64,000 nucleotides of DNA from Phycisphaeraceae bacterium (GTDB lineage Bacteria; Planctomycetota; Phycisphaerae; Phycisphaerales; UBA1924). Below are positions 1 through 58,483 of this stretch, piece by piece (position 1 is the stretch's first letter; every line of letters begins with the position of its first letter). Where the stretch lies: contig JAHBXD010000002.1 of NCBI GenBank assembly GCA_019636695.1, positions 1 through 64,000 on the forward strand, in the 5' to 3' direction. Position numbers and translations under genes: made by a program. A model generated the notes under the pieces. It was not told where the DNA came from, ran no database searches, and worked only from the letters and a program-made list of their open reading frames with translations.

Positions 1-60
<60 letters not shown>

Positions 61-3107: not shown

Positions 3108-3133
3108 ACCCCACACCCCACACGGAGGACCGC

Positions 3134-3922: not shown

Positions 3923-3924
3923 GC

Positions 3925-4386
3925 ATGGCGAACCTGAACGGATTCGACGCGACCAACGTGGACCCGAACGTCCCCTTCGACCCGCTTCCCGCCGGGAAGT
4001 ACCTGTGCGTCATCACCGCCAGCGAGATGAAGGAGACCAAGGCCGGCAACGGCGAGTACCTGGAACTGGAACTGGAGGTCATCGACGGCCCGCACAAGGG
4101 GCGGAAGCTCTGGGACCGGCTCACGCTCAGGCACCCCAACGAGAAGACCGTGCAGATCGCGCGGGGGACGCTGTCGTCGATCTGCCGGGCGGTGGGCGTG
4201 ATGGCACCGCGCGACAGCGTCGAGCTGCACAACCTGCCGCTGGTTGTGAATGTCGGGCTGAAACGGCGCGAGGACACGCAGGAGATGGCGAACAGCATCA
4301 AGGGCTACGCGAAGCGCGAGGGCGCAGCGCCCGCGCGGCCGGCCGCCACGGCCAACGGGAGCACGCCGCCGTGGAAGCGGAAGTGA
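3925..4386 (+). CDS. DUF669-family protein, SSB-like
   Basis: A 153-residue protein opening with FDATNVDPNVPFDPLPAGKY, the hallmark start of DUF669. This family is common in phage recombination clusters and often stands where an SSB would. The middle has an OB-like beta-rich segment (LELELEVIDGPHKGRKLWDR). The tail is low complexity and ends PPWKRK, not a true SSB acidic tip. It follows the Sak4-like gene by 2 bp, with AAGGAG before its ATG. A role with single-stranded DNA is inferred from the family and context. Confidence 0.8.
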   Translation: MANLNGFDATNVDPNVPFDPLPAGKYLCVITASEMKETKAGNGEYLELELEVIDGPHKGRKLWDRLTLRHPNEKTVQIARGTLSSICRAVGVMAPRDSVELHNLPLVVNVGLKRREDTQEMANSIKGYAKREGAAPARPAATANGSTPPWKRK

Positions 4387-4568
4387 GGCGTCGCCGGAGC
4401 AGTGGGACCGCGGCACCTGCTCCGTCCCGTCGCGGGATCGGACTGCCGCAAGAACGTACCTGCCCGTCCCCGCCCATGTGTGCGTGATGGGGATGCACAG
4501 GTTCGCCTGGCGATGCCGCCCCAGCGCGCGGGCACGCGCGTTGGGACTTTACCGAGCAAGGAGGCCGC

Positions 4569-4928
4569 ATGATCCGCATCGAGTTGCCCTGGCCGCCGAG
4601 CGTCAACCGTTACTGGCGTTCGATCCCGCTGCGGCGGGGGTACCGCGTTGTGCTGAGCCGCGAGGGCCGGGCGTACCGCAGGGACGTGTGCGCCCGCCTC
4701 GCGGCTCATCGGTGGTCGCTGGCAGGCCGGCTCCACGTACGGGTGACGCTGTGCGCCCCGACGCGTCGGCCGATCGACCTGGACAACCGGCTCAAGGGAC
4801 TTCTCGACGCCATGCAGCACGCGGGCGTGTACGACGACGACGGGCAGATCGACCGGATCGAGGTGGAGCGCGGCGAGGTCATCGAGGGCGGCAGCGCGCT
4901 GGTGGAGATCACGGAGGTCATCGCATGA
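4569..4928 (+). CDS. rusA: RusA-type Holliday junction resolvase
   Basis: A 119-residue protein with the RusA signature: LPWPPSVNRYWR at the N terminus and the acidic metal-binding stretch DLDNRLKGLLDAM followed by YDDDGQIDRI. RusA dimers cut four-way DNA junctions, finishing phage recombination. It starts after AAGGAGG and overlaps the next ATG by 4 bp. The gap before it (4387-4568, 182 bp) shows no gene that I can support. Confidence 0.92.
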   Translation: MIRIELPWPPSVNRYWRSIPLRRGYRVVLSREGRAYRRDVCARLAAHRWSLAGRLHVRVTLCAPTRRPIDLDNRLKGLLDAMQHAGVYDDDGQIDRIEVERGEVIEGGSALVEITEVIA

Positions 4929-5140
4929 GACCGTGCACCGAAGGGCCGCACATCTGCATCGGGTGCGGGCGCCGAGACACTCGTGCTCGCTCGCAACTCT
5001 GCATCCAGTGTCGGCGAGTCCATCATGTCAGCGAGGACGACATGGAGGACACCAACTACGACGACGACAACCAAACGCTGATGGAGTATCTGCTGGGCTC
5101 GTCATCGGACGACGACGATGACGCCGAGGACGATGTATAG
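4925..5140 (+). CDS. small zinc-ribbon protein with acidic tail
   Basis: A 71-residue protein with two Cys pairs (CIGCGR and CIQCRR, about 18 residues apart) likely to bind zinc, and a very acidic C-terminal third (SSSDDDDDAEDDV). It overlaps rusA by 4 bp (ATGA) and abuts the helicase ATG, so it is translated within the same operon. I do not recognise a named family; the acidic tail could be DNA mimicry or a docking tail, which is speculation. Confidence 0.7.
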   Translation: MRPCTEGPHICIGCGRRDTRARSQLCIQCRRVHHVSEDDMEDTNYDDDNQTLMEYLLGSSSDDDDDAEDDV

Positions 5141-6847
5141 ATGGAACTCCGCCCCTACCAGCGCGAGGCCGTGGACGCGGTGTGGAAGCACATCTCCACG
5201 AGCGACACGAACCCCGCGATCGTCCTCCCGACGGGCTCGGGCAAGACGCACGTCATCGCAGAGCTCTGCCGTGACGCGGTGCAGAGGTGGAACGGCCGGG
5301 TCGCCGTGCTCGCGCACGTGAAGGAGCTGCTCGAGCAGGCGGCGGGCAAGCTGCGCGCCGCCGCGCCCGACCTGCCCATAGGCGTGTTCAGCGCCGGACT
5401 GGGCCGGCGCGACATCGGCTACGCGGTGACCATCGCGGGCATCCAGTCCGTGTACCAGCGTGCGCACGACCTCGGGCCGCTGGATCTGGTCATCGTGGAC
5501 GAGGCACACCTGATCCCTCCCGATGGCGAGGGCATGTACCGGCGCTTCCTGGCAGACGCCCGGGAGCTGTGCGACCACCAGCGCGTGATCGGGCTGACCG
5601 CGACGCCGTTTCGGATGAAGACGGGCACGATCTGCGGCCCGGACTCGGTGCTCAATGAGGTGTGCTTCGAGGCCGGCGTGCGCGAGCTGATCGTGCAGGG
5701 ATTCCTGTGCCCGCTGAGAAGCAGGGCCGGGAAGGCGACGGCCGACACCAGCGACCTGCACGTGCGGGGCGGCGAGTTCGTCCAAGGCGAACTCGAGGAC
5801 CGAATGGACGAAGATGGTCTGGTCGAGGCCGCGTGCGCTGAGGTTGTCGCCGCGACGTCTGAGCGCCGCTCCGTCCTGCTGTTCTGCTCGGGCGTGCGGC
5901 ACGGAGAGCACGTGGCGCGCGTGCTCCGGGAGCGCCACGGAGCCGAATGCGGGTTCGTCGAGGGCAACACACCGGCGAGGAAGCGCGACGAACTCATCGA
6001 TCGGTTCAAGCGGGGCGACCTGAAGTACCTCGCCAACGTGAACGTGCTGACTACGGGATTCGACGCGCCCAACGTCGACTGCGTGGCCATGCTGCGCCCC
6101 ACACTGTCGCCCGGTCTGTACTACCAGATGGTCGGGCGAGGCTTCCGGCCGACCGAGGGGAAGGCCGACTGCCTCGTCCTGGACTTCGGCGGGAACGTGC
6201 TGCGGCACGGGCCGGTCGACGCCATTCGTCTGGCGGAGCGCAACGGCGCGCCCGGAGAGGCCCCGGCCAAGCAGTGCCCGGAGTGCGATGCGCTGATCCA
6301 CGCCGCCTACGCCGTCTGCCCCGAGTGCGGGCACGCGTTCCCGCCGCGGCAGGTCAAGCACGCGGCCGCCGCCTCTGATGAGGCGATCGTCTCGGGCTCG
6401 GATGGCCCGGCCCGCCGCGACGAGCGCGTGCTCGATGTCGCGTACCTCGTCCACTACAAGCGCAACGACCCGCTCGCCAAGCCGACGATGCGCGTGGAGT
6501 ACCGGATCGGCTTCAACCGCTGGGTGCGCGAGTGGATCTGCTTCGAGCATCCCGAGGGCGGGTACGCCCGCAGGAAGGCGGAGCAGTGGTGGCGCCGGCG
6601 CTCAAACGATCGGGTGCCCGGCACGGTCGAGGAGGCGGTCGAGTGGGCCGACGCCGGCGCGCTGGCGCCGACGCTGCGCATCACGATCGAAAAGAAGCCC
6701 GGCGACGAGTGGGAGCGGGTCGTCGCCTACGAGCTGGGCGAGAAGCCGCCGCGGCTCGAGTCGTGCGACGGCCTGCCGGATGAGCCGAGTTCGCCGGTCG
6801 GCGCCGGCACCACCTGCGGCATCCCCGACGACGAGATTCCATTCTGA
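5141..6847 (+). CDS. DEAD/DEAH-box SF2 helicase with zinc ribbon and SSB-like tail
   Basis: A 568-residue helicase with Walker A PTGSGKT (30-36), DEAH box at 120-123, motif III LTATPF, and a C-terminal helicase domain with motif VI QMVGRGFRP. A four-Cys zinc ribbon follows (CPEC 379-382, CPEC 393-396). The last residues are DDEIPF, nearly the DDDIPF tip of bacterial SSB that recruits repair proteins. It sits between RusA and the primase and overlaps the next gene by 1 bp (TGATG). It probably unwinds or remodels DNA at element replication or recombination sites. Confidence 0.88.
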   Translation: MELRPYQREAVDAVWKHISTSDTNPAIVLPTGSGKTHVIAELCRDAVQRWNGRVAVLAHVKELLEQAAGKLRAAAPDLPIGVFSAGLGRRDIGYAVTIAGIQSVYQRAHDLGPLDLVIVDEAHLIPPDGEGMYRRFLADARELCDHQRVIGLTATPFRMKTGTICGPDSVLNEVCFEAGVRELIVQGFLCPLRSRAGKATADTSDLHVRGGEFVQGELEDRMDEDGLVEAACAEVVAATSERRSVLLFCSGVRHGEHVARVLRERHGAECGFVEGNTPARKRDELIDRFKRGDLKYLANVNVLTTGFDAPNVDCVAMLRPTLSPGLYYQMVGRGFRPTEGKADCLVLDFGGNVLRHGPVDAIRLAERNGAPGEAPAKQCPECDALIHAAYAVCPECGHAFPPRQVKHAAAASDEAIVSGSDGPARRDERVLDVAYLVHYKRNDPLAKPTMRVEYRIGFNRWVREWICFEHPEGGYARRKAEQWWRRRSNDRVPGTVEEAVEWADAGALAPTLRITIEKKPGDEWERVVAYELGEKPPRLESCDGLPDEPSSPVGAGTTCGIPDDEIPF

Positions 6848-8985
6848 TGGCCGAGGGCGCGAGCCATCTCAACGGAAACCTCGGCGCGCACGCGGCGGCG
6901 TGCGTCGCCGCCGGGCTGTGCGCGCTGCCGGCGGTGCGCCGGGGCGAGGAGAAGCGAGTCGCGCTGCGGGCGTGGAAGCCCTACCAGACGCGCCTGCCCA
7001 CGCACGACGAGGTCGGATCGTGGTTCGCGCCTTCGAATGAAGCGGGGCGGTCGCTGTGCCTGGTCTGCGGGTCGGTCTCCGGCAACCTGGAGATGATCGA
7101 CTTCGAACTCGGCGGCGAGGCGTTCGAGGCCTGGCGTGAGGCCGTCGAGTCCGCGTGCCCAGGGCTGGTCGCCCGGCTGGTGATCGAGTCCACGCCCTCG
7201 GGTGGTCGCCACGTCATCTACCGGTGCGAAGCGCCGGTGTCGGGAAGCACCAAGCTCGCCAGCAGCCGCATCGTCGTGGGGGGCGAGGTCGGCGACGGCG
7301 AGCCGGTGGTCATCGGCAGCAAGGAGTACGAGCCGCGGCGCGACGCCGGTGGAAGCTGGGTCGCCATCGTCACGCTGATCGAGACGCGCGGGGAGGGCGG
7401 GCTGTTCCTGTGCGCGCCGTCGGAGGGCTACGAGATCGTTCAGGGCGATCTGTGCCGCCCGCCGCTGATCACCCCCGACGAGCGCGACGTCCTGCTCGGC
7501 TGCGCATGGGCGCTCGACGAAGCACCGGCCAAGGTCGTGGGCCACGCTTCAGCACCGAGCACCCACGCCGGCGGCCTGCGCCCGGGCGATGACTTCAACG
7601 AGCGCGGCGACCCGCGGGACGTCTTGCTCCGGCACGGCTGGGCGCTCGCCAAGGCGGGCGATAACGAGTACTGGCGCAGGCCGGGTAAGGCCGCGGGCAC
7701 CAGCGCGACCCTCAAGGACCGCGTGTTCTACGTGTTCTCGACCAACGCCGCGCCGTTCGAGGCCCACAAGGGCTACTCGCCGTTCGCGGTCTACGCGCTG
7801 CTGGAGCACGACGGCGACTTCGCCGCGGCTGCCTCGGCGCTCTCGGCGCAGGGCTACGGCCAGGCGGCGAACGACACGCAGGGCGTCGATCTCTCGGCGT
7901 TCATCACTGAGCGGCCGCCAACCAACACGAGCCCGGTCGAGCCGTCGCCACTGCCGGTCCGTGACCTCGTCGCAGCGTACCCGCTGCTGCGCCCGCCCGT
8001 TATCCACGGCCTGCTCCGCGAGGGCGAGACGATGAACGTCATCGCCAGCCCCAAGACCGGCAAGAGCTGGCTCACGCTCGACCTAGCGATCGCGGTCGCG
8101 ACCGGGCGGCCGTGGCTCGAGCGGTACGAGACGGTGAGCGGGCCGGTCTTGATCATCGACAACGAGCTGCACCGCGAGACCAGCGCCCACCGCATCCCCA
8201 AGGTCGCCCAGGCCCGCGGCGTGGCCATGCGCGAGATCGACGATCGCATCTTCGTGGACAACCTCCGCGGGCGCCTGCGCGACATCTTCACGCTCGCGCC
8301 GTACTTCCAGGCGCTGGAGCCCGGCCGCTTCCGCGTGATCGTCCTCGACGCCTTCTACCGCTTCATGCCCGCCGGCGGCGACGAGAACGACAACGGCACG
8401 ATGGCCAACATCTACAACGCCATCGACGCCTTCGCCGACCGCCTCGGCTGCTGCTTCGTCCTGATCCACCACTCGACCAAGGGCAGCCAGTCGGCCAAGA
8501 GCGTGACCGACGTTGGCGCTGGCGCCGGCGCTCAGAGCAGGGCCACCGACACGCACCTCGTTCTGCGGCCTCACGAGGACGAGGGCGTAGTCGTACTTGA
8601 CGCCGCCGTCCGCTCGTGGCCGCCGATCGCGCCGACCTGCCTGCGGTGGAAATTCCCGGTATGGACCGTCGCGGACGGGCTCGACCCGGGGTCGCTCAGG
8701 AGCGAGAAGCCCGGCAAGAAGAAGGAGCCCGCCAACGTGAAGGCCGAGACGCCCAAGTCCGAGCCGTGGACCGTCGAGCGGTTCGTCGAGGCGTTCATCT
8801 CGGGCGAGCCGGTCAGCCTCGCGGAGCTGCGGGAGCGTGCCGCCCCCGAGCCCGGGCTCTCATGGCGGCGGGTTTCCGACCTGCTCTCGATCGCCGAGGG
8901 CCAGGGGCTGATCGAGCGCGTGCGACTGCCCGGCCGCGGCGGCCGCTGGGGGTACGTCCTGCCATCCGAGGAGACCGTCCGATGA
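6847..8985 (+). CDS. bifunctional primase/polymerase with RepA-like AAA ATPase
   Basis: A 712-residue replication protein. The N-terminal 330 residues resemble the prim-pol domain of phage and plasmid primases (SLCLVCGSVSGNLEMIDFEL, then ESTPSGGRHVIYR, which carries the His of the active site). The middle is a RepA/RecA-like ATPase with Walker A SPKTGKS (Lys406) and PVLIIDNELHRE and VIVLDAFYRF strands, as in hexameric RepA helicases. The C terminus looks like a winged helix. It likely starts and drives element replication. It is coupled at both ends by 1-4 bp overlaps. Confidence 0.85.
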   Translation: MAEGASHLNGNLGAHAAACVAAGLCALPAVRRGEEKRVALRAWKPYQTRLPTHDEVGSWFAPSNEAGRSLCLVCGSVSGNLEMIDFELGGEAFEAWREAVESACPGLVARLVIESTPSGGRHVIYRCEAPVSGSTKLASSRIVVGGEVGDGEPVVIGSKEYEPRRDAGGSWVAIVTLIETRGEGGLFLCAPSEGYEIVQGDLCRPPLITPDERDVLLGCAWALDEAPAKVVGHASAPSTHAGGLRPGDDFNERGDPRDVLLRHGWALAKAGDNEYWRRPGKAAGTSATLKDRVFYVFSTNAAPFEAHKGYSPFAVYALLEHDGDFAAAASALSAQGYGQAANDTQGVDLSAFITERPPTNTSPVEPSPLPVRDLVAAYPLLRPPVIHGLLREGETMNVIASPKTGKSWLTLDLAIAVATGRPWLERYETVSGPVLIIDNELHRETSAHRIPKVAQARGVAMREIDDRIFVDNLRGRLRDIFTLAPYFQALEPGRFRVIVLDAFYRFMPAGGDENDNGTMANIYNAIDAFADRLGCCFVLIHHSTKGSQSAKSVTDVGAGAGAQSRATDTHLVLRPHEDEGVVVLDAAVRSWPPIAPTCLRWKFPVWTVADGLDPGSLRSEKPGKKKEPANVKAETPKSEPWTVERFVEAFISGEPVSLAELRERAAPEPGLSWRRVSDLLSIAEGQGLIERVRLPGRGGRWGYVLPSEETVR

Positions 8986-9425
8986 CCCGCTCCACGACCC
9001 CGAACCTCGAGCGCCGCGAACTCCGAGCGCTCAGAGTTCACCCCGAAATGCGCTCGCGCTTCGGGTTGAACTCGAAGCGCGCGCACCCCCCATACCCCCC
9101 GCGGGTGCGCCGCCGGTTGGCGGCGACCCGCGAACCGCAAGCGCGTGCGCGCTTCGAGTTCGCGCTCGAAGTTCGGTGGCATGGTTCCTTCCCGGCGGAT
9201 TCTGCGCGGACAGGCCGCCGGGAACAGCCGCAAGGGGAGACTGAGTTTGTTGCCCCTGTCCGGTCCGGTTCCGACCCCGCCCGCGACGTTGGCGCACGTG
9301 GCCAAGGGGCCGCCCGGTGGCCCCGCCCTACCCCCGCGGCGGGAGGACGCGACGTGGGCCGCCCTGGGCCGCGACGTGGCGAGACGGCCGACGGCTCGGC
9401 GCGCCGGGCGGGAGGGCGGCCATGA
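8982..9425 (+). CDS. hypothetical Arg-rich protein
   Basis: An open frame of 147 codons bounded by 4-bp ATGA overlaps with the genes on both sides, which argues for translation. The product is very rich in Arg, Ala and Gly and resembles no family I know. Its DNA is full of imperfect palindromes (9018-9166), so the stretch may instead be mainly a structured, non-coding control or origin region that happens to be open. Confidence 0.4.
   Translation: MTRSTTPNLERRELRALRVHPEMRSRFGLNSKRAHPPYPPRVRRRLAATREPQARARFEFALEVRWHGSFPADSARTGRREQPQGETEFVAPVRSGSDPARDVGARGQGAARWPRPTPAAGGRDVGRPGPRRGETADGSARRAGGRP
9018..9166. other. cluster of imperfect palindromes, origin-like
   Basis: 9018-9039 is a 22-bp near-palindrome (10 of 11 arm bases pair; GAACTCCGAGC / GCTCAGAGTTC). 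9043-9064 is a looser one with three mismatches per arm. GAACTCGAAGCGCGC near 9068 is inverted at GCGCGCTTCGAGTTC near 9148. The cluster lies directly after the primase gene, where phage and plasmid origins often lie. No AT-rich segment is visible, so the origin reading is only a suggestion. Confidence 0.35.
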
Positions 9426-10114
9426 AGCGCCCTACCGACGCCGAGGTCCGCCGGACATACCTCCACGGGCCCGATGGGGTCCGCCTGGTCGGGCACCGCG
9501 AGTACGTCGGGGGCCTGTGGGACGAGGTCGGGAGGCTGCAGTTGCGGTTCCTCCGGGGCCGCGGGCTGCGACGGGACCACCGCGTGCTCGACATCGGGTG
9601 CGGCGCGCTGCGCGGCGGCGTCCACCTGGTCCGCTACCTCGACGCCGGTCGGTACACCGGTGTGGACAAGGAGCCGGCGCTGCTGCGCATCGGCGCCGAG
9701 GAGGAACTCGGACCGGCGCTCTTGGCGGCGAAGCGGCCGACGCTGCTGGCGCTGTCCGACTTCGAGTTCGACCGGCTGACCCCCACGGCGCGGCCGGACA
9801 TCGCGTGGGCGCACTCGCTCTTCACGCACCTGCCGATGGAGCACATCCGGCGCTGCCTGGCGAACCTGCGGCCGGTCATGATGCGCGGCGGGGTTCTCTA
9901 CGCCACGTTCGGCGAGTGCGATGCGCCGAAGGACAACCCGACCGAGCCGCACGACCACCGGCTGTTCGAGTACACGCCCGCGGAGATGACCGAGGCGGGG
10001 CGCGCCACCGGCTGGCGCGTCGAGCACCTCAGCAAGTGGGGGCACCCGCGCGGGCACCGAATGCTGCGGTTCTTACCCACCCCCAAGAGACACACGTCAA
10101 GGAGGACGGCATGA
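9422..10114 (+). CDS. class I SAM-dependent methyltransferase
   Basis: A 230-residue Rossmann-fold methyltransferase with motif I VLDIGCGALRGG (about 56-67), an acidic end of strand 2 at VDKEPALL, and DIAWAHSLFTHL in place of a motif IV. No (N/D/S)PP(Y/F) DNA-methylase motif is present, so the substrate is more likely a small molecule, sugar or protein than a DNA base. The ATG at 9422 overlaps the previous stop, and its own stop overlaps the next start (ATGA). Its role in the element is unknown. Confidence 0.75.
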   Translation: MKRPTDAEVRRTYLHGPDGVRLVGHREYVGGLWDEVGRLQLRFLRGRGLRRDHRVLDIGCGALRGGVHLVRYLDAGRYTGVDKEPALLRIGAEEELGPALLAAKRPTLLALSDFEFDRLTPTARPDIAWAHSLFTHLPMEHIRRCLANLRPVMMRGGVLYATFGECDAPKDNPTEPHDHRLFEYTPAEMTEAGRATGWRVEHLSKWGHPRGHRMLRFLPTPKRHTSRRTA

Positions 10115-11505
10115 AGATCGAGATGCGACCGATCGGAGAGGTCAAGCCCTACGAGCAGAACCCGCGGCTGAACGACGACGCGGTGGAGGCGGTCGCCGAG
10201 AGCATCAGGCGCTTCGGCTTCCGCCAGCCGATCGTGGTCGATGGCGACGGCGTGATCGTCTGCGGTCACACGCGCTGGAAGGCGGCCCAGAAGCTCGGCC
10301 TGGAGAAGGTGCCCGTACATGTCGCCCGCGACCTGACGCCCGAGCAGGTGCGCGCATACCGCATCGCCGACAACAAGACGGCGGAGTTGGCTGAGTGGAA
10401 CATGGAACTGCTCCCGATCGAGCTGGCGGAACTCCAGGACGCCGGCATCGACTGGTCGCTCCTCGGGTTCGATCAGGACGAGCTGGCGCAGCTGCTCGAC
10501 CCCGGCGTGAAGCACGGGCTGACCGACCCCGATGCCGTGCCCGAACCGCCGGACGAGCCGGTCACGAAGCGCGGCGACCTGTGGGTGCTCGGCGATCACC
10601 GCCTGCTCTGCGGCGATAGCGCCAGCGCCGAGGATGTCGATCGGCTGCTCGGCGGGCAGCGCATCCACCTGGTCAACACGGACCCGCCGTACAACGTGAA
10701 GGTCGAGCCGCGGAGCAACAACGCGATCGCGGCCGGCGTCACGTCGTTCTCGCGGCGCGAGGACCTCCAGTGCGAGCGGTCCAAGAGCGAACGCGGCAAG
10801 AAGGACCGTGAGCGCATGGCCCGGAAGGCCGCGGCGTCGCACCACCAGGGCTTCGACCTCGCGCGGCACCCGGAGAAATCCAAGCCCACCGGGAAGATGC
10901 GCGCGAAGGACCGTCCGCTCATCAACGACTTCGTATCCGACGAGGAGTTCGAGCGGCTGCTGCTGGCGTGGTTCGGGAACATGGCCCGTGCGCTGGAGCC
11001 CGGGCGCGGGTTCTACATCTGGGGCGGGTACGCGAACTGCGCCAACTACCCGCCGGCCCTGCGCGCGTCGGGGTTGTATTTCTCGCAGGCGCTCATCTGG
11101 GACAAGCAGCATCCCGTGCTGACGCGCAAGGACTTCATGGGCGCGCACGAGTGGTGCTTCTACGGCTGGAAGGAGGGCGCTGCGCACGTCTTCCTGGGGC
11201 CGAACAACGTGCCCGACCTCTGGCACGTCAAGAAGGTCAACCCCAACGCGATGGTCCACCTGACGGAGAAGCCCGTCGAGCTGGCGGTGCGGGCCATGCA
11301 GTACTCGTCGCGCCCGGGCGAGCACGTGCTCGACCTGTTCGGCGGCAGCGGCTCAACGCTGATCGCGGCCGAGCAGACGGGGCGGAAGGCGTTCCTGATG
11401 GAGATCGACCCGGCGTACTGCGATGTCATCGTGCAGCGATGGGAGCAGTTCACGGGGCGGAAGGCAGAGCGGGTCGCAGGCGTAGGAGCCGCCACGGATG
11501 CCTAA
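10111..11505 (+). CDS. ParB-like nuclease domain/DNA methylase fusion
   Basis: A 464-residue phage-type DNA methyltransferase. Residues 1-95 form a ParB/Srx-like domain (IGEVKPYEQNPRLND, then VDGDGVIVCGHTRWKAA). The methylase half has the catalytic NTDPPYNV motif (about 190-197) followed, after an insert with a basic stretch, by motif I VLDLFGGSGSTLIAAE near the C terminus. This motif order (IV before I) is that of beta-class amino-methylases, which make N6-methyladenine or N4-methylcytosine. No cognate nuclease adjoins it, so it is an orphan methylase, likely protecting element DNA. GGAGG lies before the ATG. Confidence 0.88.
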   Translation: MKIEMRPIGEVKPYEQNPRLNDDAVEAVAESIRRFGFRQPIVVDGDGVIVCGHTRWKAAQKLGLEKVPVHVARDLTPEQVRAYRIADNKTAELAEWNMELLPIELAELQDAGIDWSLLGFDQDELAQLLDPGVKHGLTDPDAVPEPPDEPVTKRGDLWVLGDHRLLCGDSASAEDVDRLLGGQRIHLVNTDPPYNVKVEPRSNNAIAAGVTSFSRREDLQCERSKSERGKKDRERMARKAAASHHQGFDLARHPEKSKPTGKMRAKDRPLINDFVSDEEFERLLLAWFGNMARALEPGRGFYIWGGYANCANYPPALRASGLYFSQALIWDKQHPVLTRKDFMGAHEWCFYGWKEGAAHVFLGPNNVPDLWHVKKVNPNAMVHLTEKPVELAVRAMQYSSRPGEHVLDLFGGSGSTLIAAEQTGRKAFLMEIDPAYCDVIVQRWEQFTGRKAERVAGVGAATDA

Positions 11506-13898: not shown

Positions 13899-14165
13899 AT
13901 GTCCGAACAGGCGCCTAGTCCGCAGGGGAACTCCTTGCCCGCCGGCGCGCCCGGGCGGCTGAATCCGGCGGCGATGCCCGTGGCCGATGCGGCGCGCCTG
14001 CTGTCGCGCGCGGGCGGGCAGCGCGTGACCGAAGCCATGCTTGCGGCGGACATCAACGCGGGCGCGCCGACCAACCCCGACGGCACGATCAACCTCGTGC
14101 ACTACGGCGCGTGGCTGGTGCGTGAGGCGGCGCGGACGCAGGGAGGGACGCCCGTTGGCGATTGA
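13899..14165 (+). CDS. small phage protein, HTH-like
   Basis: An 88-residue protein with a central helix-turn-helix-like segment: VADAARLLSRAGGQRVTEAM, then LAADINAGAPTN, then INLVHYGAWLVREAA. In-frame codons extend upstream, but the ATG at 13899 follows GGAGGCCGG and begins the protein-like part. The next frame starts at a TTG inside its end. The pair resembles what often precedes terminase genes, so it may once have been part of the packaging block. This is inference. Confidence 0.6.
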   Translation: MSEQAPSPQGNSLPAGAPGRLNPAAMPVADAARLLSRAGGQRVTEAMLAADINAGAPTNPDGTINLVHYGAWLVREAARTQGGTPVGD

Positions 14166-14250
14166 CCCTCGCAGCCTGCGCCCGGGCGAGCTGTGCCGTC
14201 TGCTGAACTCCACGCCGCTGGGCGAGGTGATCGGCGAGCGGCAGCTGCAC
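14155..14250 (+). pseudogene. 5' fragment of small DNA-binding phage gene, cut by deletion
   Basis: From a TTG at 14155, preceded by GGAGGGAC, about 32 codons look genuine (MAIDPRSLRPGELCRLLNST, then LGEVIGERQLHR). The frame then runs without protein-like character through the tail genes to 14982. The natural sequence appears to stop near 14250, where a different gene's 3' part begins in another frame. The product may have been a small terminase-like or regulatory protein. Confidence 0.55.
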
Positions 14251-14524
14251 CGTCAACCTGTTCTCACGACGCTTCACAGTGCAGAGCACCGACGGATGGG
14301 TCAAGGTGAGCGCCGACTCCGTCGTCGTCGACTGCGAGATCAGGGCGTCGCAGAACAACAACGTCGCCATCCGGCAGGTCGGCAGCGGCGTTCAGGAAGC
14401 GGACGCTGCGCAGTTGTCGAACACGCTCCAGCGCCTCAGCGGCGTCGACCTGTCCGAGATCGAGGTCTCGACGCCATCGGCGACGCCCCTCACCGTACAT
14501 GTGATCGGATTCAGCAGGAGATGA
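14231..14524 (+). pseudogene. 3' fragment of a tail or connector gene
   Basis: After a stop at 14228 in this frame, protein-like sequence begins near 14243 (CTVNLFSRRFTVQSTDGWVK) and runs 90-odd residues to a stop just before the tail tube ribosome site. The only good initiator is a GTG at 14279 with no ribosome site. This is best read as the C-terminal part of a longer protein whose 5' end was removed. Its place just upstream of the tail tube suggests a neck or tail-terminator type gene. The fragment may still be translated from the upstream TTG only if a frameshift occurs. Confidence 0.6.
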
Positions 14525-14527: not shown

Positions 14528-14968
14528 ATGGCCATCCGCCTGGGCATGGAAGCCAAGGTCTACCGCAACACCGGCACATGGGCGACGCCCACGTGGGTCG
14601 AGATCACCAACGTCCGCGATGTGACGCTCAACCTCGAGACCGGCGAGGCGGACGTGACCACCCGCGCCAACAGCGGCTGGCGGGCGACCGCCGCGACGCT
14701 CAAGGAGGCGAGCGTCGAGTTCGAGATGGTCTGGGACACGGCCGACGCCGGCTTCACGGCCATCAAGGACGCCTTTTTCGACGGGGAGAGCATCGACCTG
14801 GCGGTGATGGACGGCGACATCACGCAGAGCGGCACGCAGGGCCTGCGGGCCGAGTTCTCGATCACGTCCTTCAGCAGATCCGAGCCGCTGGAGGAGGCGA
14901 TCACGGTGAGCGTCACCGCCAAGCCGGCGTACTCGGTCAACGCCCCGCAGTGGATGGTCGTGCCGTGA
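14528..14968 (+). CDS. phage major tail tube protein
   Basis: A 146-residue protein with the beta-rich pattern of siphophage tail tube subunits: an N-terminal MAIRLGMEAKVYRN, a central LETGEADVTTRANSGWRATA, and AAFKDAFFDG-like and TQGLRAEFSITSFSRSEPLE segments. Hexamer rings of this protein stack to form the tail tube. AGGAG precedes the ATG. The tail chaperone and tape measure follow in the expected order. Confidence 0.8.
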   Translation: MAIRLGMEAKVYRNTGTWATPTWVEITNVRDVTLNLETGEADVTTRANSGWRATAATLKEASVEFEMVWDTADAGFTAIKDAFFDGESIDLAVMDGDITQSGTQGLRAEFSITSFSRSEPLEEAITVSVTAKPAYSVNAPQWMVVP

Positions 14969-14978: not shown

Positions 14979-15464
14979 ATGAAGGTGTTCAAGGACAACG
15001 CGGGGCGGGAGTGGACGGTCGAGGTCAACGTCGCCGCCCTCAAGCGCGTCAAGAGCCTTGCGGGCGTGGACCTGCTCGGCGTGCTCGACGGCACGCTCAT
15101 CGAGCGGCTCATCCGCGACCCCGTCCTGCTGTGTGATGTGGTCTATTCGGTCTGCAAGCCGCAGGCGGACGAGCGCGGCGTCACCGACGAGGACTTCGGC
15201 CGTGCGATGGCCGGCGACGCGATCGAGCACGCGACGGGGGCGCTGCTGGAGGAACTGGTGTCTTTCTGCCCGAGCCCGAGGGACAGGGCCAACCTCGGGC
15301 GGGTGCTCAAGGCCACGAGGGACGTGATGGACAAGGCCCGCGACATGGTCGAGGCCAGACTCGAGAGTGGAGAACTGGAGAAAGCCGCGGAGGAGGCGCT
15401 TCAGACGCTTGGAACCTCATCTGGCAGTGCGCCGGCCTCGTCGGGCTCGACCCCTCCGGACTGA
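14979..15464 (+). CDS. tail assembly chaperone, gpG-like
   Basis: A 161-residue helical protein between tail tube and tape measure, the position of lambda gpG and its analogues, which hold the tape measure during tail assembly. It begins MKVFKDNAGREWTVEVNVAA and ends in a Ser/Ala/Pro stretch (GTSSGSAPASSGSTPPD) that looks like out-of-frame reading of the next segment. The protein-like sequence continues in the -1 frame. GAGGAGG lies before the ATG. Confidence 0.75.
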   Translation: MKVFKDNAGREWTVEVNVAALKRVKSLAGVDLLGVLDGTLIERLIRDPVLLCDVVYSVCKPQADERGVTDEDFGRAMAGDAIEHATGALLEELVSFCPSPRDRANLGRVLKATRDVMDKARDMVEARLESGELEKAAEEALQTLGTSSGSAPASSGSTPPD

Positions 15465-15484
15465 CCCTGCGCGAACTCCTGGCG

Positions 15485-15709
15485 ATGGCCGAGGCCCGCC
15501 AGAAGCACGACTGGACCATGACCAGCAGCCTGATGGCCCTGATCGCCAACGCCCACCGCGACCCCAAGAAGCACGGACCGTTCAAGCCGACCGACTTCGA
15601 CCCTACCAGCCGCAGCACAACGCAACCCGTCAAAGCCGGCGTCGGCGTCCTCAAGGACGTCTTCATCGACAGGAAGGTTCCCTCTGTGGGCAAGGAGGTC
15701 CCATCGTGA
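15485..15709 (+). CDS. tail chaperone extension, gpT-like; probably made by -1 frameshift
   Basis: The ATG at 15485 gives 74 residues, but protein-like sequence in this frame starts further upstream, near 15413 (NLIWQCAGLVGLDPSGLTLR), overlapping the end of the gpG-like gene in the -1 frame. LLAMAEARQKHDWTMTSSLM and NAHRDPKKHGPF resemble the T part of phage gpGT proteins. It may be made mainly as a gpG-T fusion. I see no textbook slippery heptamer between 15375 and 15415, so the slip site is unknown. Confidence 0.62.
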   Translation: MAEARQKHDWTMTSSLMALIANAHRDPKKHGPFKPTDFDPTSRSTTQPVKAGVGVLKDVFIDRKVPSVGKEVPS

Positions 15710-16161
15710 ATCACCGCACCGTCGCGTATGCCTTCGGGCTCGTCATGCTCACCCTGGCTCTGGCCGCGTGCGCAGGCTTCGACCTCGGCGACGTCGTCAA
15801 GGTCAGGACGCCCAACGCCATCCAGCAGACCACCGGCCTGCCGGCGCGCGTCAGCCTCAACGAGGCGGAGGCCGAGTACCGGGCGTGGTTCGAGAACGTC
15901 CAGCGCACAGGCGCGCAGTGGAAGGCGTCGATTGAGCGCGCGGGAGAGATCCGCGGCCTGCTCGGCCAACTCACGCTCAGCGCTCTGGACGACGTCGGTC
16001 CGACACTGGCCGGCGTGCCCGTCGTTGGCCCGGCGCTGCCGGCGCTGACGGGCATCGTCGGCCTGTTCATCGGCTCGGGCCGCCTGCGCAAGGAGAAGGA
16101 GGCTTCGTTCAACAAGGGGCTCAAGGAGGGCAAGACGCTCAACGGAGGCGCGGCCGCGTGA
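15706..16161 (+). CDS. phage lipoprotein, unknown role
   Basis: A 151-residue protein from a GTG with AAGGAGG 8 bp upstream. It has a signal peptide and lipobox LALAAC with the lipid-modified Cys at about 22. The mature part holds a helical region and a hydrophobic stretch VPVVGPALPALTGIVGLFIG near residues 105-125, followed by a basic tail. It could be a lysis, superinfection-exclusion or membrane-anchor protein. It overlaps the next gene by 4 bp (GTGA). Confidence 0.65.
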   Translation: MNHRTVAYAFGLVMLTLALAACAGFDLGDVVKVRTPNAIQQTTGLPARVSLNEAEAEYRAWFENVQRTGAQWKASIERAGEIRGLLGQLTLSALDDVGPTLAGVPVVGPALPALTGIVGLFIGSGRLRKEKEASFNKGLKEGKTLNGGAAA

Positions 16162-16607
16162 TCGACGTGCGCGTCAAGCAGCTCTTCTTCGACCGGCCGC
16201 GCGTGGTCGCGGCTGTGGAACGGGCGAAGCGTAAGGCCCTGTCCCGCGGCGGCGCGTTCATCCGCCAGTCGGCCAAGACCAGCATCCGCAAGCGCAAGGG
16301 GTCGGCCCCGCCGGGAAGGCCGCCGCACTCGCACGAGGGGAGCCTGCGCCGGCTCTTCCTGTTCGGCTACGACAGGAGCACCGACTCGGTCGTCGTCGGG
16401 CCGGTGGGCTTCAAGAAGAGCACGGCGCCCAACGTGCTGGAGTTCGGCGGTCGAACCATCATCACACGGCGTGTGCGCGGCCGGCTCGTGCGTCAGCGCG
16501 TGAAGATCGCCGAGCGCCCCTACATGGGACCGGCGCTGGCGAAGGAGAAGCCCAAGCTCCCGAAGGCGTGGGCCAACAGCATTCGTGGGGGTCGGGGAGG
16601 GCCGTGA
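16158..16607 (+). CDS. HK97 gp10-like/minor tail protein
   Basis: A 149-residue basic protein with GGAFIRQSAKTSIRKRKGSA followed by PGRPPHS and a C-terminal RPYMGPALAKEKPKLPKAW. The pattern of a helical N terminus, a PPHS-like loop and a late 'RP+M.PAL' motif is that of phage virion morphogenesis/gp10-like proteins at the head-tail neck. It is the only neck-type protein left. Start is GTG in the GTGA overlap with the lipoprotein gene. Confidence 0.65.
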   Translation: MIDVRVKQLFFDRPRVVAAVERAKRKALSRGGAFIRQSAKTSIRKRKGSAPPGRPPHSHEGSLRRLFLFGYDRSTDSVVVGPVGFKKSTAPNVLEFGGRTIITRRVRGRLVRQRVKIAERPYMGPALAKEKPKLPKAWANSIRGGRGGP

Positions 16608-18615: not shown

Positions 18616-19425
18616 GTGCCCATCGTCGTCGAGGAGCGATTCGAGAGCCGGTCCACCGTCGCGGGCAAGAGCCCGTCGGTCGAGCTGCGCTACTGGATCA
18701 AGGGCACCGACGACGACCTCGCCGCGCGCGGCGCGCTGGAGGCCGCGGCGCCGTCCGAGTACAGCGGCCTCGTCCGCCAGGACGTGCAGATCGAACCCCA
18801 GGGGCACGAACTGTGGGATGGCACCGTGCGCTACGCCGTGCCCTCCTTCGGCGGGCTCCAGACCGGCGAGAGCGTCTTCAGCTTCGACACCGGCGGCGGC
18901 ACGCGCCACATCACCCAGAGCCTTCAGACGATCACGCGCAAGGCCCCGCCGGGCCAGACCGCGCCTGACTTCAAGGGCGCCATCGGCGTCACCGACACCG
19001 GCGTCGAGGGCGTGGACATCGTCGTGCCGGTGTACCACTTCAGCGAGACGCACTACAAGCCCGACTCGCAGGTCACGCAGGCGTACAAGCTCACGCTCTT
19101 CGGCCTGACCGGCAAGGTCAACAACGGCTCGTTCCGAGGCTTCGCGGCCGGCGAGGTGCTCTTCCTCGGCGCGACGGGCTCGAAGCGCGTTGCGCCCGGC
19201 GGCTCGCAGGACTGGGAGATCACGTTCCGGTTCGCCGCCAGCCCGAACGCGACGGGGCTGAAGGTCGGTGACATCACGGGCATTAGCAAGAAGGGCTGGG
19301 AGTACCTGTGGGCGCGGTACGCCGACCGCACGGACGACGCCGCCAAGGCGCTGGTGAAGCGGCCCATCGCAGCCTATGTCGAGAAGGTCTACGAGGCGGG
19401 CAACTTCGGGGGGCTGGGCATCTGA
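18616..19425 (+). CDS. tail-region structural protein, unknown role
   Basis: A 269-residue protein starting at GTG (PIVVEERFESRSTVAGKSPS), beta-rich throughout with repeated short strands and few helices, in keeping with a distal-tail or baseplate subunit. It follows the tape measure by 10 bp, where the distal-tail protein usually lies. I do not recognise a named family. Confidence 0.6.
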   Translation: MPIVVEERFESRSTVAGKSPSVELRYWIKGTDDDLAARGALEAAAPSEYSGLVRQDVQIEPQGHELWDGTVRYAVPSFGGLQTGESVFSFDTGGGTRHITQSLQTITRKAPPGQTAPDFKGAIGVTDTGVEGVDIVVPVYHFSETHYKPDSQVTQAYKLTLFGLTGKVNNGSFRGFAAGEVLFLGATGSKRVAPGGSQDWEITFRFAASPNATGLKVGDITGISKKGWEYLWARYADRTDDAAKALVKRPIAAYVEKVYEAGNFGGLGI

Positions 19426-19437
19426 CCCGCGCGAGCC

Positions 19438-20784
19438 ATGGGCGACGCCTTCCGCAAAGTCCGGTCCGGCCAGCCGCTGGCGATCCCCGCCGCGGCGTAC
19501 AACGCCTTCGTCGATGCGGCGGTGGCGCACCGCGAGCAGGGCGCGGGAGCCGGCGATGCGATCCACGCCTTCCGCCAAGCGGGCATCGTGCCCGTGCTCA
19601 ACGCCAGCGGCAACGACAAGAGCCGCTTCGACATCCTCGGCATCGGCGGGCCGCTCATCTTCCCGAAGGAGAACTTCGACGAGTTCGCGGCGCGCGTGGC
19701 GCTGCGCGGTGTCGAGCCAAAGCCCAAGCACACCGGTCGCTTCGTCGTGCTGCTCGAACCCATCGCCAAAGGGGCGATCGGGCGCGCGTGCGTGGACGGC
19801 GTGTGCCCGGCGCGCGTTCGCATGCTCGACGAGTGCGACCGCTTCGCCGACATCGACCCCGACGCGGGCAGTTCCGGAGGCGGAGGAGGTGGTGGCGGTG
19901 GTGGCGGCTCCAGCGGGAGCGGCGGCGGAGGCGGTGGTGGCGGCGGTTCGGGCAGCGGCTCGGGTGGTTCCGGTTCCGGCGGTGGCTCTGGCGGAGGGGG
20001 CGGATCTGGCGGAGGAGGAGGCGGGGGGGGAGGAGGAGGTGGTGGTGGCGGTGGTGGAGGAGGGGGAGGCGGAGGCGGCGGGGGTGGAGGTGGTGGGGGT
20101 TCGGGCGGTGGCTCGGGCGGCGGCAGCGGCTCGTCCGGCTACAACTGCTTCCTCGAAGGCACGCTCGTGCGCCTGGCCGGCGGCGCGCTCGTTCCGATCG
20201 AAGATCTGCGGCCGGGCGACCGCGTGGCGTCCTTGCGCGTGCCGGGGCTCGAGGCGGACGCGCCGGACCGCGCGCAGTACCTGTGGCGCACCGATGCCGA
20301 CGAGTCAGACCTGGAGCGCTGCGCCGCGGAGATCGCGAGCGTCACGCGCGGCGAGCACGAAGGCTTCCACGTCATCAACGGGCGCATCAAGGCGACCTTT
20401 GAGCACCCGCTGCTCGCGCGCCGCGGCGATGAACTGGGTTTCTGCTACGTCGAGATGCTGCGCGTGGGCGATGCGCTCCTGCGCCACGACCTGACCGAAG
20501 AGCCCGTCGCCAGCATCGAACGCTTCGAGGGTGTCGTCTCCACCGTTGCCATCCACGTGCCCGGCACGAACACCTACGTCGCCGACGGGGTCTGGGCCCA
20601 CAACGACCTCGCCCAGTTCGCCGGGTCGGTCAGCAGTTCCAGTTCCGGCTCGGGCTCCGGCTCTTCGAGCGTGTCCGACTCCGGCAAGTCGAGCGGATCG
20701 TCGTTCAGCAGCAGCGCATCGTCGTCATCGGGCTCGAGTTCCGCTATCGTCGTGCCGTTCGGCGGCGTGACGGTGCCGTTCTGA
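19438..20784 (+). CDS. Hint (intein/hedgehog-type) domain protein 1 with poly-Gly linker
   Basis: A 448-residue protein in five parts: a tail-like N-terminal domain (1-143), a Gly/Ser linker of about 90 residues, a Hint autoprocessing domain from Cys237 (CFLEGTLVRLAGG) to His388-Asn389 (ADGVWAHN), a Ser-rich linker, and the end VTVPF. Inside Hint are the block-B-like FHVINGRIKATFEHPLLARR with its His and the late VSTVAIHVPGTNTYVADG strand. Residue 390 is Asp, not Cys/Ser/Thr, so cleavage rather than full splicing is likely, as in bacterial intein-like domains. The next gene repeats the design. Confidence 0.85.
   Translation: MGDAFRKVRSGQPLAIPAAAYNAFVDAAVAHREQGAGAGDAIHAFRQAGIVPVLNASGNDKSRFDILGIGGPLIFPKENFDEFAARVALRGVEPKPKHTGRFVVLLEPIAKGAIGRACVDGVCPARVRMLDECDRFADIDPDAGSSGGGGGGGGGGGSSGSGGGGGGGGGSGSGSGGSGSGGGSGGGGGSGGGGGGGGGGGGGGGGGGGGGGGGGGGGGGGSGGGSGGGSGSSGYNCFLEGTLVRLAGGALVPIEDLRPGDRVASLRVPGLEADAPDRAQYLWRTDADESDLERCAAEIASVTRGEHEGFHVINGRIKATFEHPLLARRGDELGFCYVEMLRVGDALLRHDLTEEPVASIERFEGVVSTVAIHVPGTNTYVADGVWAHNDLAQFAGSVSSSSSGSGSGSSSVSDSGKSSGSSFSSSASSSSGSSSAIVVPFGGVTVPF
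19867..20139 (+). repeat. G-rich low-complexity tract encoding poly-Gly/Ser
   Basis: About 91 codons of almost only Gly and Ser (GGN/AGC/TCN). The plus strand is a near-unbroken G-run (GGAGGCGGGGGTGGAGGTGG-like), able to form G-quadruplexes and prone to slippage. Changes of a multiple of 3 would only alter linker length; others would switch off the Hint domain. A shorter tract of the same kind lies at about 21019-21085. Confidence 0.8.
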
Positions 20785-20794
20785 GGAGGTAGCG

Positions 20795-21688
20795 ATGATC
20801 CTCAAGAGCAGCACCACCGGCTCCGCTCACCTGCTCTGGGTCCAGCCCAGAAGCCAGCGCGACGACCCCGACGTCGCGTGGACGATCGCGCGCATCGGCA
20901 ACCCGCACCTCAACCCGCCCTGCCCGAGTTCCAGCGGCTCGTTCAGCGAGAGCAGCGGGTCCGAGCCTTCCACGTCGGAGCCTTCGAGTTCCGAGAGTTC
21001 GGATGGAACGGGCGGCACCAGCGGCTCGGGCGGCGGGTCCGGTGGCGGGTCCGGCAGTGGCGGCGGAGGTGGCGGCGGGGGCGGGAACTGCTTCCTCTTC
21101 GGCACGCTCGTGCGCCTCGCGGATGGCAGGCTCGTCCCGATCGAGCGCCTCCAGCCCGGCGACGAGGTCGCGTCGCTCGACGTGCCCGGCCTGGCCCGCG
21201 ACGCCGACTGGCAGGCGCAGTACCGGTGGCGCGTCACCGGCGCTGCGACGCCTCGCCCGTGCATATCGCGCATCGCCACTGTGCGTCGCGGCACACACAG
21301 CGGGTTCTACCTGATCAACGGCCGCGTGAAGGCGACCTTCGAGCACCCGTTCCTGATCCGGCGTGGTGATGACACGGGCTTCTGCTCGGCCGAGCTCCTG
21401 CGCATTGGCGACCGTCTCGTCCGCCACGATCTGGCGGACGAGCGCATCGAGTCGATCGAGCGCATCGACCGCACGGTTCGCACCGTGGCTCTGCACGTTC
21501 CCGGCACCAATGTCTACCTCGCCGACGGCGTGTGGGTCCACAACGACGCGCTGAGTTCCGGCAGCGGTAGTTCTGCATCGAGCAGCGGCGGCGCGGGGAG
21601 CAGCAGCAAGAGCAGCGGCTCGTCCTTCGGCGGGTCCGGGTCGAGTTCCAGCGGCAGCTCAGGGAGCGGGATCACCGTGCCCTTCTGA
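20795..21688 (+). CDS. Hint (intein/hedgehog-type) domain protein 2
   Basis: A 297-residue paralogue of the preceding gene with a short N-terminal domain (MILKSSTTGSAHLLWVQPRS), a Ser/Glu then Gly/Ser linker, a Hint domain from Cys99 (CFLFGTLVRLADG) to His249-Asn250 (ADGVWVHN), a Ser-rich tail and the end ITVPF. It keeps the same residues as copy 1, including NGRVKATFEHPFLIRR and Asp after the final Asn. The N-terminal domain differs, so the Hint-linker-TVPF cassette looks modular. GAGGAGG precedes the ATG. Confidence 0.85.
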   Translation: MILKSSTTGSAHLLWVQPRSQRDDPDVAWTIARIGNPHLNPPCPSSSGSFSESSGSEPSTSEPSSSESSDGTGGTSGSGGGSGGGSGSGGGGGGGGGNCFLFGTLVRLADGRLVPIERLQPGDEVASLDVPGLARDADWQAQYRWRVTGAATPRPCISRIATVRRGTHSGFYLINGRVKATFEHPFLIRRGDDTGFCSAELLRIGDRLVRHDLADERIESIERIDRTVRTVALHVPGTNVYLADGVWVHNDALSSGSGSSASSSGGAGSSSKSSGSSFGGSGSSSSGSSGSGITVPF

Positions 21689-21704: not shown

Positions 21705-22214
21705 ATGAAGACGATCGACATCCTCCAACGTGCACTCACCGCCCGCGATCGGCTCATGGCCGACGAGCGCATCCTCCACGCCGAGATCACCGGCTCGGTC
21801 CGGCGCGGCCTGCCCGAGGTCGGCGACCTCGACCTGCTCATCGTCACCAACGACCCTTGGGCGTTCCACGGCAATCCCGCCAAGCCGCGCAAGCCCGAAC
21901 GCGAGGCCGACCTGTTTGTCGCCACGCCGGAGACCTACGGGGCGGTGCTGGCCTTCTCGACCGGCCCGCGCGAGCTGAACCGCGCGCTGCGCGAGAAGGC
22001 GAGGGAGAGGGGATACCTGTTCGACTTCGCCTCCGACGGCACCGACGGCACGCCGACGATCGAGGCCAAGCACGGGCCGTTCGTCGGGCTCTACACGCTC
22101 GACGGCACGACCCCGACACCCACCCCCACACCAACCGAGGAGCAGTTCTTCCGCCTGGTCGGCGTGCCGCACGTGCCGCCGCCGTTCCGGGAGTGGCTCG
22201 CCACACAGCTATGA
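21705..22214 (+). CDS. DNA polymerase beta-like nucleotidyltransferase-fold protein
   Basis: A 169-residue protein with the minimal nucleotidyltransferase motif: ITGSVRRGLPEVGDLDLLIV supplies the GS...DxD signature (about 28-47). It has similarity in layout to the palm of family X polymerases but lacks the 8-kDa and thumb domains. The C-terminal segment FFRLVGVPHVPPPFREW also recalls the end of PolX palms, where GLPYVPPELRE-like sequence is seen. It overlaps the next gene by 4 bp. The substrate is unknown; DNA end filling or protein nucleotidylation are possible. Confidence 0.68.
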   Translation: MKTIDILQRALTARDRLMADERILHAEITGSVRRGLPEVGDLDLLIVTNDPWAFHGNPAKPRKPEREADLFVATPETYGAVLAFSTGPRELNRALREKARERGYLFDFASDGTDGTPTIEAKHGPFVGLYTLDGTTPTPTPTPTEEQFFRLVGVPHVPPPFREWLATQL

Positions 22215-23746
22215 CCACCGCCGCGACCATCTTCCCACCCCCGCCATTCGCCGACCGGGTCGAATCGGCTGTCGCCGCGCCCATAAAGAAGGATGCGGCG
22301 CCCGCACCCGGCTTGGCCGACGAGACCCTGAGACTCCTATCCGCCTCGGCGGGCGGCGCGGAGGTCCGCGCCCTGTGCATCAACCTCGACCGCCGCCCCG
22401 AGCGATGGGAGGCCTTCAAGCGCAACTGCCCGATCCGCGGCGTTCACCGCTTCCCCGCGATCGACGGCCGGGCCGTCCGCCCGCCGGCGTGGTGGCGGCA
22501 GGGCGGCGGGGCCTGGGGCTGCATGCTCAGCCACATCCGCATCCTCGAGCAGGCGCTGGCCGACGGCCTCGACCGCTGTGGGGGGCGCGGGGGCGTGCTG
22601 TTGGTGCTTGAGGACGACGCCCTCTTCCCGCCGGATTTCGCCGAGCGGGCGGCCCGGTTCATCCGCGCCCTGCCCGCCGACTGGGAGCAGGTCTACCTCG
22701 GCGGCCAGCACCGCGGTCTCCGAGTCCGCCAGCCGCAGCGGGTCAACGACGAGGTCGTCCGTCCCTTCATGGTCAACCGCACGCAGGCCTACGCCGTCCG
22801 CGGCCACTTCATCCGCGTGCTCTATCAGCACCTCTGCGACTGGCCCGCGCACGCCCGCTCGCCGCGCCACCACGTGGATCACCGGATGGAGTTGCTGCAC
22901 CGCGCGGGCAAGCACAAGGTCTACGCCCCGGCGAAGTGGATCGTCGGCCAGGCCGGCGGGCCCAGCGACATCTCCGGCCGCGTCACCCAGGACCGCTTCT
23001 GGAACGGCTGGGGCAAGGGGCCGCGGCAGGTCCATCGCCCGCCCGTGTGGGTCATCGGCCTGCACCGCTCCGGCTCGTCCGTCACCGCAGGCATCCTCCA
23101 CCGCCTCGGCGTGCACATGGGCAACCGCCTCATCGGCTACGAGAACCGCGGCGGCCGTGGCACCGGCGGCTTCGAGGCACACGGCTTGGCGATGATCTGC
23201 GAGCAGGCCTACCCGTTCCCGTCGGTCGAGCGCGCGGTGCCGGTCGAGACCACGCGCCGGCGCCTCCGCGAGTGGATCGACGCCCGCCAGCGCGAGGCCG
23301 CCTGGCGGGGCACGATCATGGGCGGCAAGTACCCGCACCTCTGCTTCATGATCGACCTGCTCCTGGAGCTCGAGCCCGAGAGCCGGTTCATCCACATCGA
23401 CCGCCCGATCGAGGAGTCGATCCACTCCCTGGTGGACCGCTCGGCCAAAGCCCACGGCTGGCTCCGGGCGACGCCGGAACTGTGCGAACGGCTCCAGCGG
23501 GCGCTGGGGGAGGCGAAGACGGAGGGGCTGGCGAGGGTGCCGGAGGGGCGGGTGCTGACCGTGCAGTACCACGACCTGCTCGCGGGCGCGGAGGACAGCA
23601 TCGACCGCGTCGTCGCCTTCCTTGGCTTGAAGGTGCGACCGGCGCAGCGCAGCGAAGCGCTTCGCCTCGTCGCCCCGGCGCGTGGTGTCCACGCTCTCTC
23701 CCTGGGCGGGCGGCCGTGCCAGTTTGAGAGCGGTGAACGGTTCTGA
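22211..23746 (+). CDS. GT25-type glycosyltransferase fused to sulfotransferase-like domain
   Basis: A 511-residue two-domain protein. Residues 50-250 match the GT25/LPS glycosyltransferase pattern: VRALCINLDRRPERWEAFKR, then GAWGCMLSHIRILEQAL, then VLLVLEDDALFPPDF with the EDD metal/nucleotide motif. Residues 275-490 start with PPVWVIGLHRSGSSVTAGIL, the PAPS phosphate-binding loop of sulfotransferases, and contain RFIHIDRPIEESIHSLV. It could glycosylate and sulfate a cell-surface or tail structure. It is the last gene of the phage-like block; 97 bp separate it from the CRISPR locus. Confidence 0.8.
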   Translation: MTTAATIFPPPPFADRVESAVAAPIKKDAAPAPGLADETLRLLSASAGGAEVRALCINLDRRPERWEAFKRNCPIRGVHRFPAIDGRAVRPPAWWRQGGGAWGCMLSHIRILEQALADGLDRCGGRGGVLLVLEDDALFPPDFAERAARFIRALPADWEQVYLGGQHRGLRVRQPQRVNDEVVRPFMVNRTQAYAVRGHFIRVLYQHLCDWPAHARSPRHHVDHRMELLHRAGKHKVYAPAKWIVGQAGGPSDISGRVTQDRFWNGWGKGPRQVHRPPVWVIGLHRSGSSVTAGILHRLGVHMGNRLIGYENRGGRGTGGFEAHGLAMICEQAYPFPSVERAVPVETTRRRLREWIDARQREAAWRGTIMGGKYPHLCFMIDLLLELEPESRFIHIDRPIEESIHSLVDRSAKAHGWLRATPELCERLQRALGEAKTEGLARVPEGRVLTVQYHDLLAGAEDSIDRVVAFLGLKVRPAQRSEALRLVAPARGVHALSLGGRPCQFESGERF

Positions 23747-23843
23747 CGGCTGGTCCCGTCGATGCGATCTTGCGGCCGCGGTTTCGGCGGGCTTATTGGA
23801 CGCCGGCGTGGAGCGGGGTCCGAATACAACCGATGGCACACTC

Positions 23844-25667: not shown

Positions 25668-25678
25668 CGGGAGGCCCC

Positions 25679-25969: not shown

Positions 25970-25994
25970 CGCTTACCAAGCCGGGCCTGGCACC

Positions 25995-26104
25995 CTGACA
26001 GGACCCTGCCTCGGGTATACTCCTCCACCTCCGGACCCACGCTGACGGGGGTCCGGTATGGTGTTGGTCCGCTGACCAACCGGCCCGCTGCTCTCCGGCG
26101 GGCC
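25995..26104 (+). promoter_or_regulatory. possible promoter and three tandem hairpins between cas2 and cas3
   Basis: CTGACA (25995-26000) and TATACT (26016-26021), 15 bp apart, resemble a sigma-70 promoter with a slightly short spacer. Downstream are three consecutive perfect hairpins: CCGGACCC/GGGTCCGG (26031-26056, 8 bp), GTTGGTC/GACCAAC (26063-26080, 7 bp with a CGCT loop) and GGCCCGC/GCGGGCC (26082-26104, 7 bp). They would form the leader of a cas3 transcript. None ends in a T-run. Confidence 0.45.
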
Positions 26105-26134
26105 GATCGATCTCGGTAGTGGGTGGACGTTGCG

Positions 26135-58436: not shown

Positions 58437-58483
<47 letters not shown>

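Follow-up and report, generated by a model that had tools for sequence, protein, structure and literature searches.

A tRNA-Asp-associated planctomycete prophage most probably made defective by one deletion of its packaging and head genes

The element and its genes

The window, that is, the whole stretch analysed, comprises the first 64 kb of contig C2 from an assembly of 3.11 Mb in 9 contigs (94% complete); it opens at a contig end, with the contig start falling inside a tRNA gene. The element it contains is most likely a lambda-like temperate prophage with a non-contractile, siphovirus-like tail, integrated at a tRNA-Asp gene of a Phycisphaerales-type planctomycete host. It was compared with intact prophages from G007 (BJ19, JACTNA010000016.1; locus G007:C6), G034 (locus G034:C40) and L112 (PNC22, CP053450.1), and with a second related prophage on contig C1 of the same genome. 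The features of the element are listed below.

14–68, plus strand: left att-like copy, the 3' part of tRNA-Asp(GTC), at the contig start and directly left of the integrase; a 55-bp direct repeat, 96% identical to 58437–58489, with its core also left of the integrase in the intact G034 prophage
175–1509, plus strand: tyrosine integrase (PF00589), 70% identical over its full length to that of the intact G034 prophage
2160–11505, plus strand: early and replication genes (PD-(D/E)XK nuclease, AAA_24, DUF669, RusA, helicase, primase-like AAA_25, ParB-methyltransferase), recognised by Pfam and collinear with G034:C40
13899–14165, plus strand: small gene overlapping the terminase start, found directly upstream of full-length terminase in the intact relatives G007, G034, L193 and L196
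14155–14250, plus strand: 5' stump of the terminase large-subunit gene, about 33 of about 766 codons, at most 94% identical to the N-termini of open frames of 766–806 aa
14246–14254, no strand: probable deletion junction, 7.8–8.1 kb shorter than intact relatives and ambiguous by at most about 5 bases, placed by ungapped comparison with intact terminase DNA and the second prophage and by distances in four relatives
14252–14524, plus strand: 3' part of a small gene, about 90 of 92 codons with the native start lost, 97% identical to the intact MGANLFSRRF... gene at C1:985420-985695; an aligned family occurs in relatives
14528–14968, plus strand: major tail tube protein, intact and with its own start (PF06199, E 1.2e-12; PHROG 1407), 93% identical in intact G007
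14979–16607, plus strand: four more open tail-region genes, of tail assembly and tail completion types, matching G007:C6 gene for gene at 83–91% identity
16611–18605, plus strand: full-length tape measure protein (PHROG 8462, E 9e-40), 88% identical over 664 residues in G007
18616–21688, plus strand: tail-end genes in the same order as in G007 and L112, two with Hint domains behind glycine-rich linkers (Hint_2 and PT-HINT matches)
21705–23700, plus strand: Pol-beta-like nucleotidyltransferase and sulfotransferase/glycosyltransferase (Pfam), 79–85% identical to G007:C6, where the phage homology ends on the right

The full tail module that the initial annotation placed downstream is present, with the tube, tape measure and tail-end genes open and matched in G007. 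Two of the tail-end genes (19438–20784 and 20795–21688) encode long glycine/serine-rich linkers followed by Hint (intein-like) domains, an arrangement conserved in intact relatives; these are possible self-cleaving tail proteins. All tail genes of the window are open, and the changes that can be assigned to its branch comprise 71 silent and 33 protein-altering ones.

DNA homology to phage stops at about 23521, and phage homology as a whole ends at about 23.5–23.7 kb, after which type I-G CRISPR-Cas and other defence-like genes follow. The type I-G (I-U) system at 23682–33700 adjoins the right end of the prophage and matches models for a Cas4-Cas1 fusion, Cas3, Cas8g, Cas7g and Cas5/6g; on the minus strand, 33911–38230 and 38702–56433 hold an HKD/SNF2 helicase, large methyltransferase-like genes and a HerA-like ATPase, which resemble defence systems. 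The direct repeats at 14–68 and 58437–58489 bracket a 58-kb interval that includes the headless prophage, the CRISPR-Cas genes and the defence-like genes; a third copy of the tRNA-Asp repeat was sought near 23.7 kb, at the end of the phage homology, and was not found. The interval is either one element or a pile-up of two. The tRNA-Asp gene is the likely attachment site because the intact G034 prophage has the same core ahead of its integrase. In that genome (L101; G034:C40) the phage att copy is separated from the intact tRNA-Asp gene by about 12 kb of other DNA, a spacing that suggests tandem integration at one tRNA. A full tRNA-Asp gene also occurs at the end of contig C7 (L111; G000:C7:1-545); it shares its terminator with the right flank of the window and may represent either the left flank or another occupant of the attachment site.

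Two truncated genes at one junction

The initial annotation described a gene fragment starting at 14155 and another ending at 14524 that meet near 14240–14251, and both frames and the join are found as placed. Two points of it are corrected: the 5' partner is the terminase itself, and the 3' gene is almost whole. From the TTG at 14155 the frame encodes LAIDPRSLRPGELCRLLNSTPLGEVIGERQLHR and is thereafter out of phase until a stop at 14982, for a total of about 275 codons. In high-G+C DNA a long open frame is no evidence of protein; because this DNA is so rich in G+C, the long frame past the join was not counted as such. Terminase N-termini from dozens of relatives align with the 33 residues starting at 14155, the best at E 5.6e-17 with 94% identity to a 792-aa open frame; the matches span many genomes of the same family and order, with frames mostly of 766–806 aa. 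A full-length relative matches PF20454 (GpA_nuclease) and the terminase large-subunit families PHROG 38/15. The ATPase and nuclease domains are absent from the terminase of the window, of which only residues 2–35 are left, with the 3' limit of the stump also placed at about 14253. Pfam and PHROGs profile searches with either fragment alone gave no match; for the 5' fragment this silence, and the failure of the initial annotation to name the gene, follow from the survival of only the extreme N-terminus.

The frame at 14246–14521 is 97% identical to the intact 92-aa gene of the same genome (C1:985420-985695) over residues 3–92 (E 5e-53), and by this alignment the 3' gene is nearly whole, missing only its first three or so codons (the start and about two more); GTG 14279 may provide a putative alternative start. 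In relatives the slot of this gene lies between the neck genes and the tail-tube gene, and in most of the close relatives examined it holds a small variable protein with a common start and a VDxSxxEV-like motif. A peptide-pattern search of IMG/VR for the gene found no instance, in collections from which the source genome may be absent. The product is predicted to adopt a small beta fold (mean pLDDT 82); a structure search returned a best PDB match at E 0.03 and viral matches to unnamed proteins, and no function is claimed for it.

The two similarities change over at the scar. Similarity to intact terminase DNA ends at about 14248–14252, and DNA similarity to the C1 prophage starts at 14255 by blastn or about 14252 by eye. 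The pre-deletion sequence is not exactly recoverable, so that microhomology at the join is bounded at no more than about 5 bases. Exact scans of sequence collections for the junction returned no other record, again in collections that may lack the source genome.

The head block in intact relatives and in a second prophage

Comparison with intact planctomycete prophages shows what is missing. In G007, G034:C40 and L112 the gene order on both sides of the scar is as in the window and the tail tube is 67–95% identical; the G034 prophage also shares the tRNA-Asp att core. In G034:C40 the match to the window begins at the integrase, takes in the replication genes and reaches the gene preceding the terminase; next come genes for terminase, portal, capsid, cement, head-tail joining and neck and the small-slot gene, after which the match resumes with the tail of the window; G007:C6 is collinear from just 5' of the terminase to the right end, head block included. 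These prophages differ from the window in possessing the head block, which adds 7.8–8.1 kb between the same two points in G007, G034, L193 and L196. L112 was excluded from this measurement, its record being cut ahead of the terminase start, and the neck gene, which has no family match, is named by position only. The comparison proposed by the initial annotation thus gives the arrangement it foresaw, with terminase to head-tail genes lying between the full-length versions of both fragments and matching genes on both outer sides. A full-length homologue with the same ends as either fragment and an unrecognised capsid gene in the element were also sought; neither was found.

The head block is widely retained in this family. 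Reference genomes and IMG/VR supplied 160 loci carrying a related tail-tube gene, 102 of which have at least 4.5 kb of upstream DNA; capsid and head-tail joining genes are present in all 102, portal in 90 and terminase in 65, the absences of the latter two probably reflecting short loci that end before those genes. Thirteen tail loci from relatives were chosen on the grounds that no terminase start was seen nearby or that the terminase start or tube gene looked broken. Twelve of them (some overlapping with the 160) also keep capsid genes; the thirteenth, from G001, the only same-genus genome searched, is a decayed scrap with a partial ParB-methyltransferase and half a tube gene. G001 was considered as a shared headless ancestor and rejected, as only this scrap is there. 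The headless state is therefore private to the source genome as far as sampled. Most of the named relatives are metagenome assemblies from planctomycetes, and many belong to the Phycisphaerales. Another broken prophage was seen at L047 (G010:C41:15000-34999), with a terminase N-terminus in a 276-aa open frame; the head and tail genes searched for were not found in the roughly 10 kb after it.

The second prophage of the source genome (L003/L004; G000:C1:970900-990200) adjoins tRNA-Pro and contains an integrase, cargo genes, the C-terminal half of a terminase and complete head genes; breaks interrupt its terminase and its tape-measure gene, the latter at about residue 421. Its head genes match Phage_portal_2, Phage_capsid_4, Phage_cement_2 (twice) and a head-tail joining family. 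Here the intact 92-aa gene is flanked by a neck-type gene and the tail-tube gene, and the neck, head-tail joining, cement, capsid and portal genes are all 5' of it. The portal of this prophage is the only one in the whole assembly, and GpA-type terminase is limited to residues 2–35 in the window and 442–757 in the C1 prophage; an intact terminase of the family of the window is absent from the 94%-complete assembly. As judged from gene content, neither prophage would package alone, and combined they would still lack the terminase ATPase region. A search of the whole 64 kb of the window with the head genes of relatives matched nothing except the 92-aa gene, so the absence of terminase, portal, protease and capsid genes reported for the element stands, apart from the terminase N-terminus.

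Origin and fate of the headless state

The truncation of two genes, the missing block and its presence in intact relatives are established by comparison at the level of sequence. Integrase (PF00589), replication genes, tail tube (PF06199) and tape measure are all recognised, and the terminase-to-neck block is missing here while head genes are kept in G007, G034 and 102 of 102 comparable loci, which characterises a defective prophage. It is considered highly probable (about 0.92) that the prophage became defective through one deletion of about 8 kb that removed the packaging and head block. In this event, an illegitimate deletion, the left break would have cut the terminase large-subunit gene after about 33 codons, and the right break the small gene preceding the tail-tube gene after about 3; the genes for terminase, portal, protease-capsid, cement, head-tail joining and neck, which provide the procapsid and its filling with DNA, would have been lost together, with the integration, replication and tail genes left open. 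Integration and replication would still be possible for such an element, and in principle tail production too, but it would form no virions. The single deletion proposed by the initial annotation accounts for everything seen, as intact relatives carry the missing block exactly between the two points; the loss of the head block between two genes is also upheld, except that the 5' partner is the terminase itself rather than a separate gene. We infer that the loss happened once, that it is recent and that virions are absent; two successive deletions sharing outer ends would look identical to one. Recent loss from a working phage is suggested by the full length of the retained genes and the mostly silent changes in the tail, an excess that fits recent loss and equally fits later selection on the tail.

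That second possibility leads to domestication as a tailocin, in which selection in the host would maintain the tail module, headless non-contractile tails would be released against competitors, and the deletion would be the founding step. F-type pyocins are such headless non-contractile tails that kill competitors, and F-type tailocins resemble the window in having tail genes without head genes; the open tail genes with their gene-for-gene match to an intact relative and the predominance of silent changes on the branch of the window are compatible with this use. However, the ratio of silent to replacement changes cannot separate selection before the deletion from selection after it, and the window is a single occurrence, with none of the 102 comparable loci headless. 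The integrase and replication genes are still there, whereas classic tailocin clusters lack both; the neck genes are gone, and the junction breaks the gene beside the tube gene and leaves it startless. A lysis gene was not recognised among the scanned genes, although those of planctomycete phages may be unrecognisable. Domestication finds no positive support and is improbable. The variant in which the deletion founded tailocin-like tail use within the 58-kb tRNA-Asp-bounded island, headlessness being tolerated or selected since an island so enlarged has ceased to move as a phage, is rated quite improbable.

An assembly artefact, with the contig joining two distant places and the true prophage intact, could be prompted by the start of the window at a contig end inside a tRNA gene and by the second related prophage, since such a copy can confuse assemblers. 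Judged from the assembled contig without reads, an error is formally possible, but the join shares at most about 5 bases, far under any assembly overlap, which makes a false repeat join unlikely; at only about 90% identity to the second prophage, the tail side does not represent a collapsed copy, and no intact terminase of this family exists elsewhere in the assembly. The artefact is accordingly very unlikely. A split phage, with the window giving replication and tail genes and the C1 prophage its portal, capsid, cement and head-tail genes, is extremely unlikely, and autonomous packaging by such a pair is already contradicted: both terminase remnants lack the middle of the protein and neither is a working enzyme, which leaves the assembly about 400 residues short, the ATPase region among them. 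A gene transfer agent was rejected, as the element has no portal, capsid or working terminase.

The loss of the packaging and head block places the element among the cryptic prophages. A survey of 1384 prophages found that incomplete ones preferentially lose terminase, portal and capsid genes and are enriched in integrase and tail-fibre genes, and named tailocins as a possible fate of incomplete prophages (PMC7744054). The window shares with these the loss of terminase, portal and capsid and the retention of integrase and tail genes, but differs in having one clean scar with both stumps readable rather than scattered decay (PMC7744054). It thus follows the ordinary decay pattern of an integrated virus, as a new instance of a well-known kind; it opens no new kind of system, and the decay is unusually clean to see since intact relatives survive. 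A GpA-type terminase with a conserved N-terminal extension unites a family of planctomycete siphovirus-like prophages, and in a phylum whose phages are little studied the window provides a clear single-step case in which the packaging and head block is lost and the integrase, replication and tail genes are kept.
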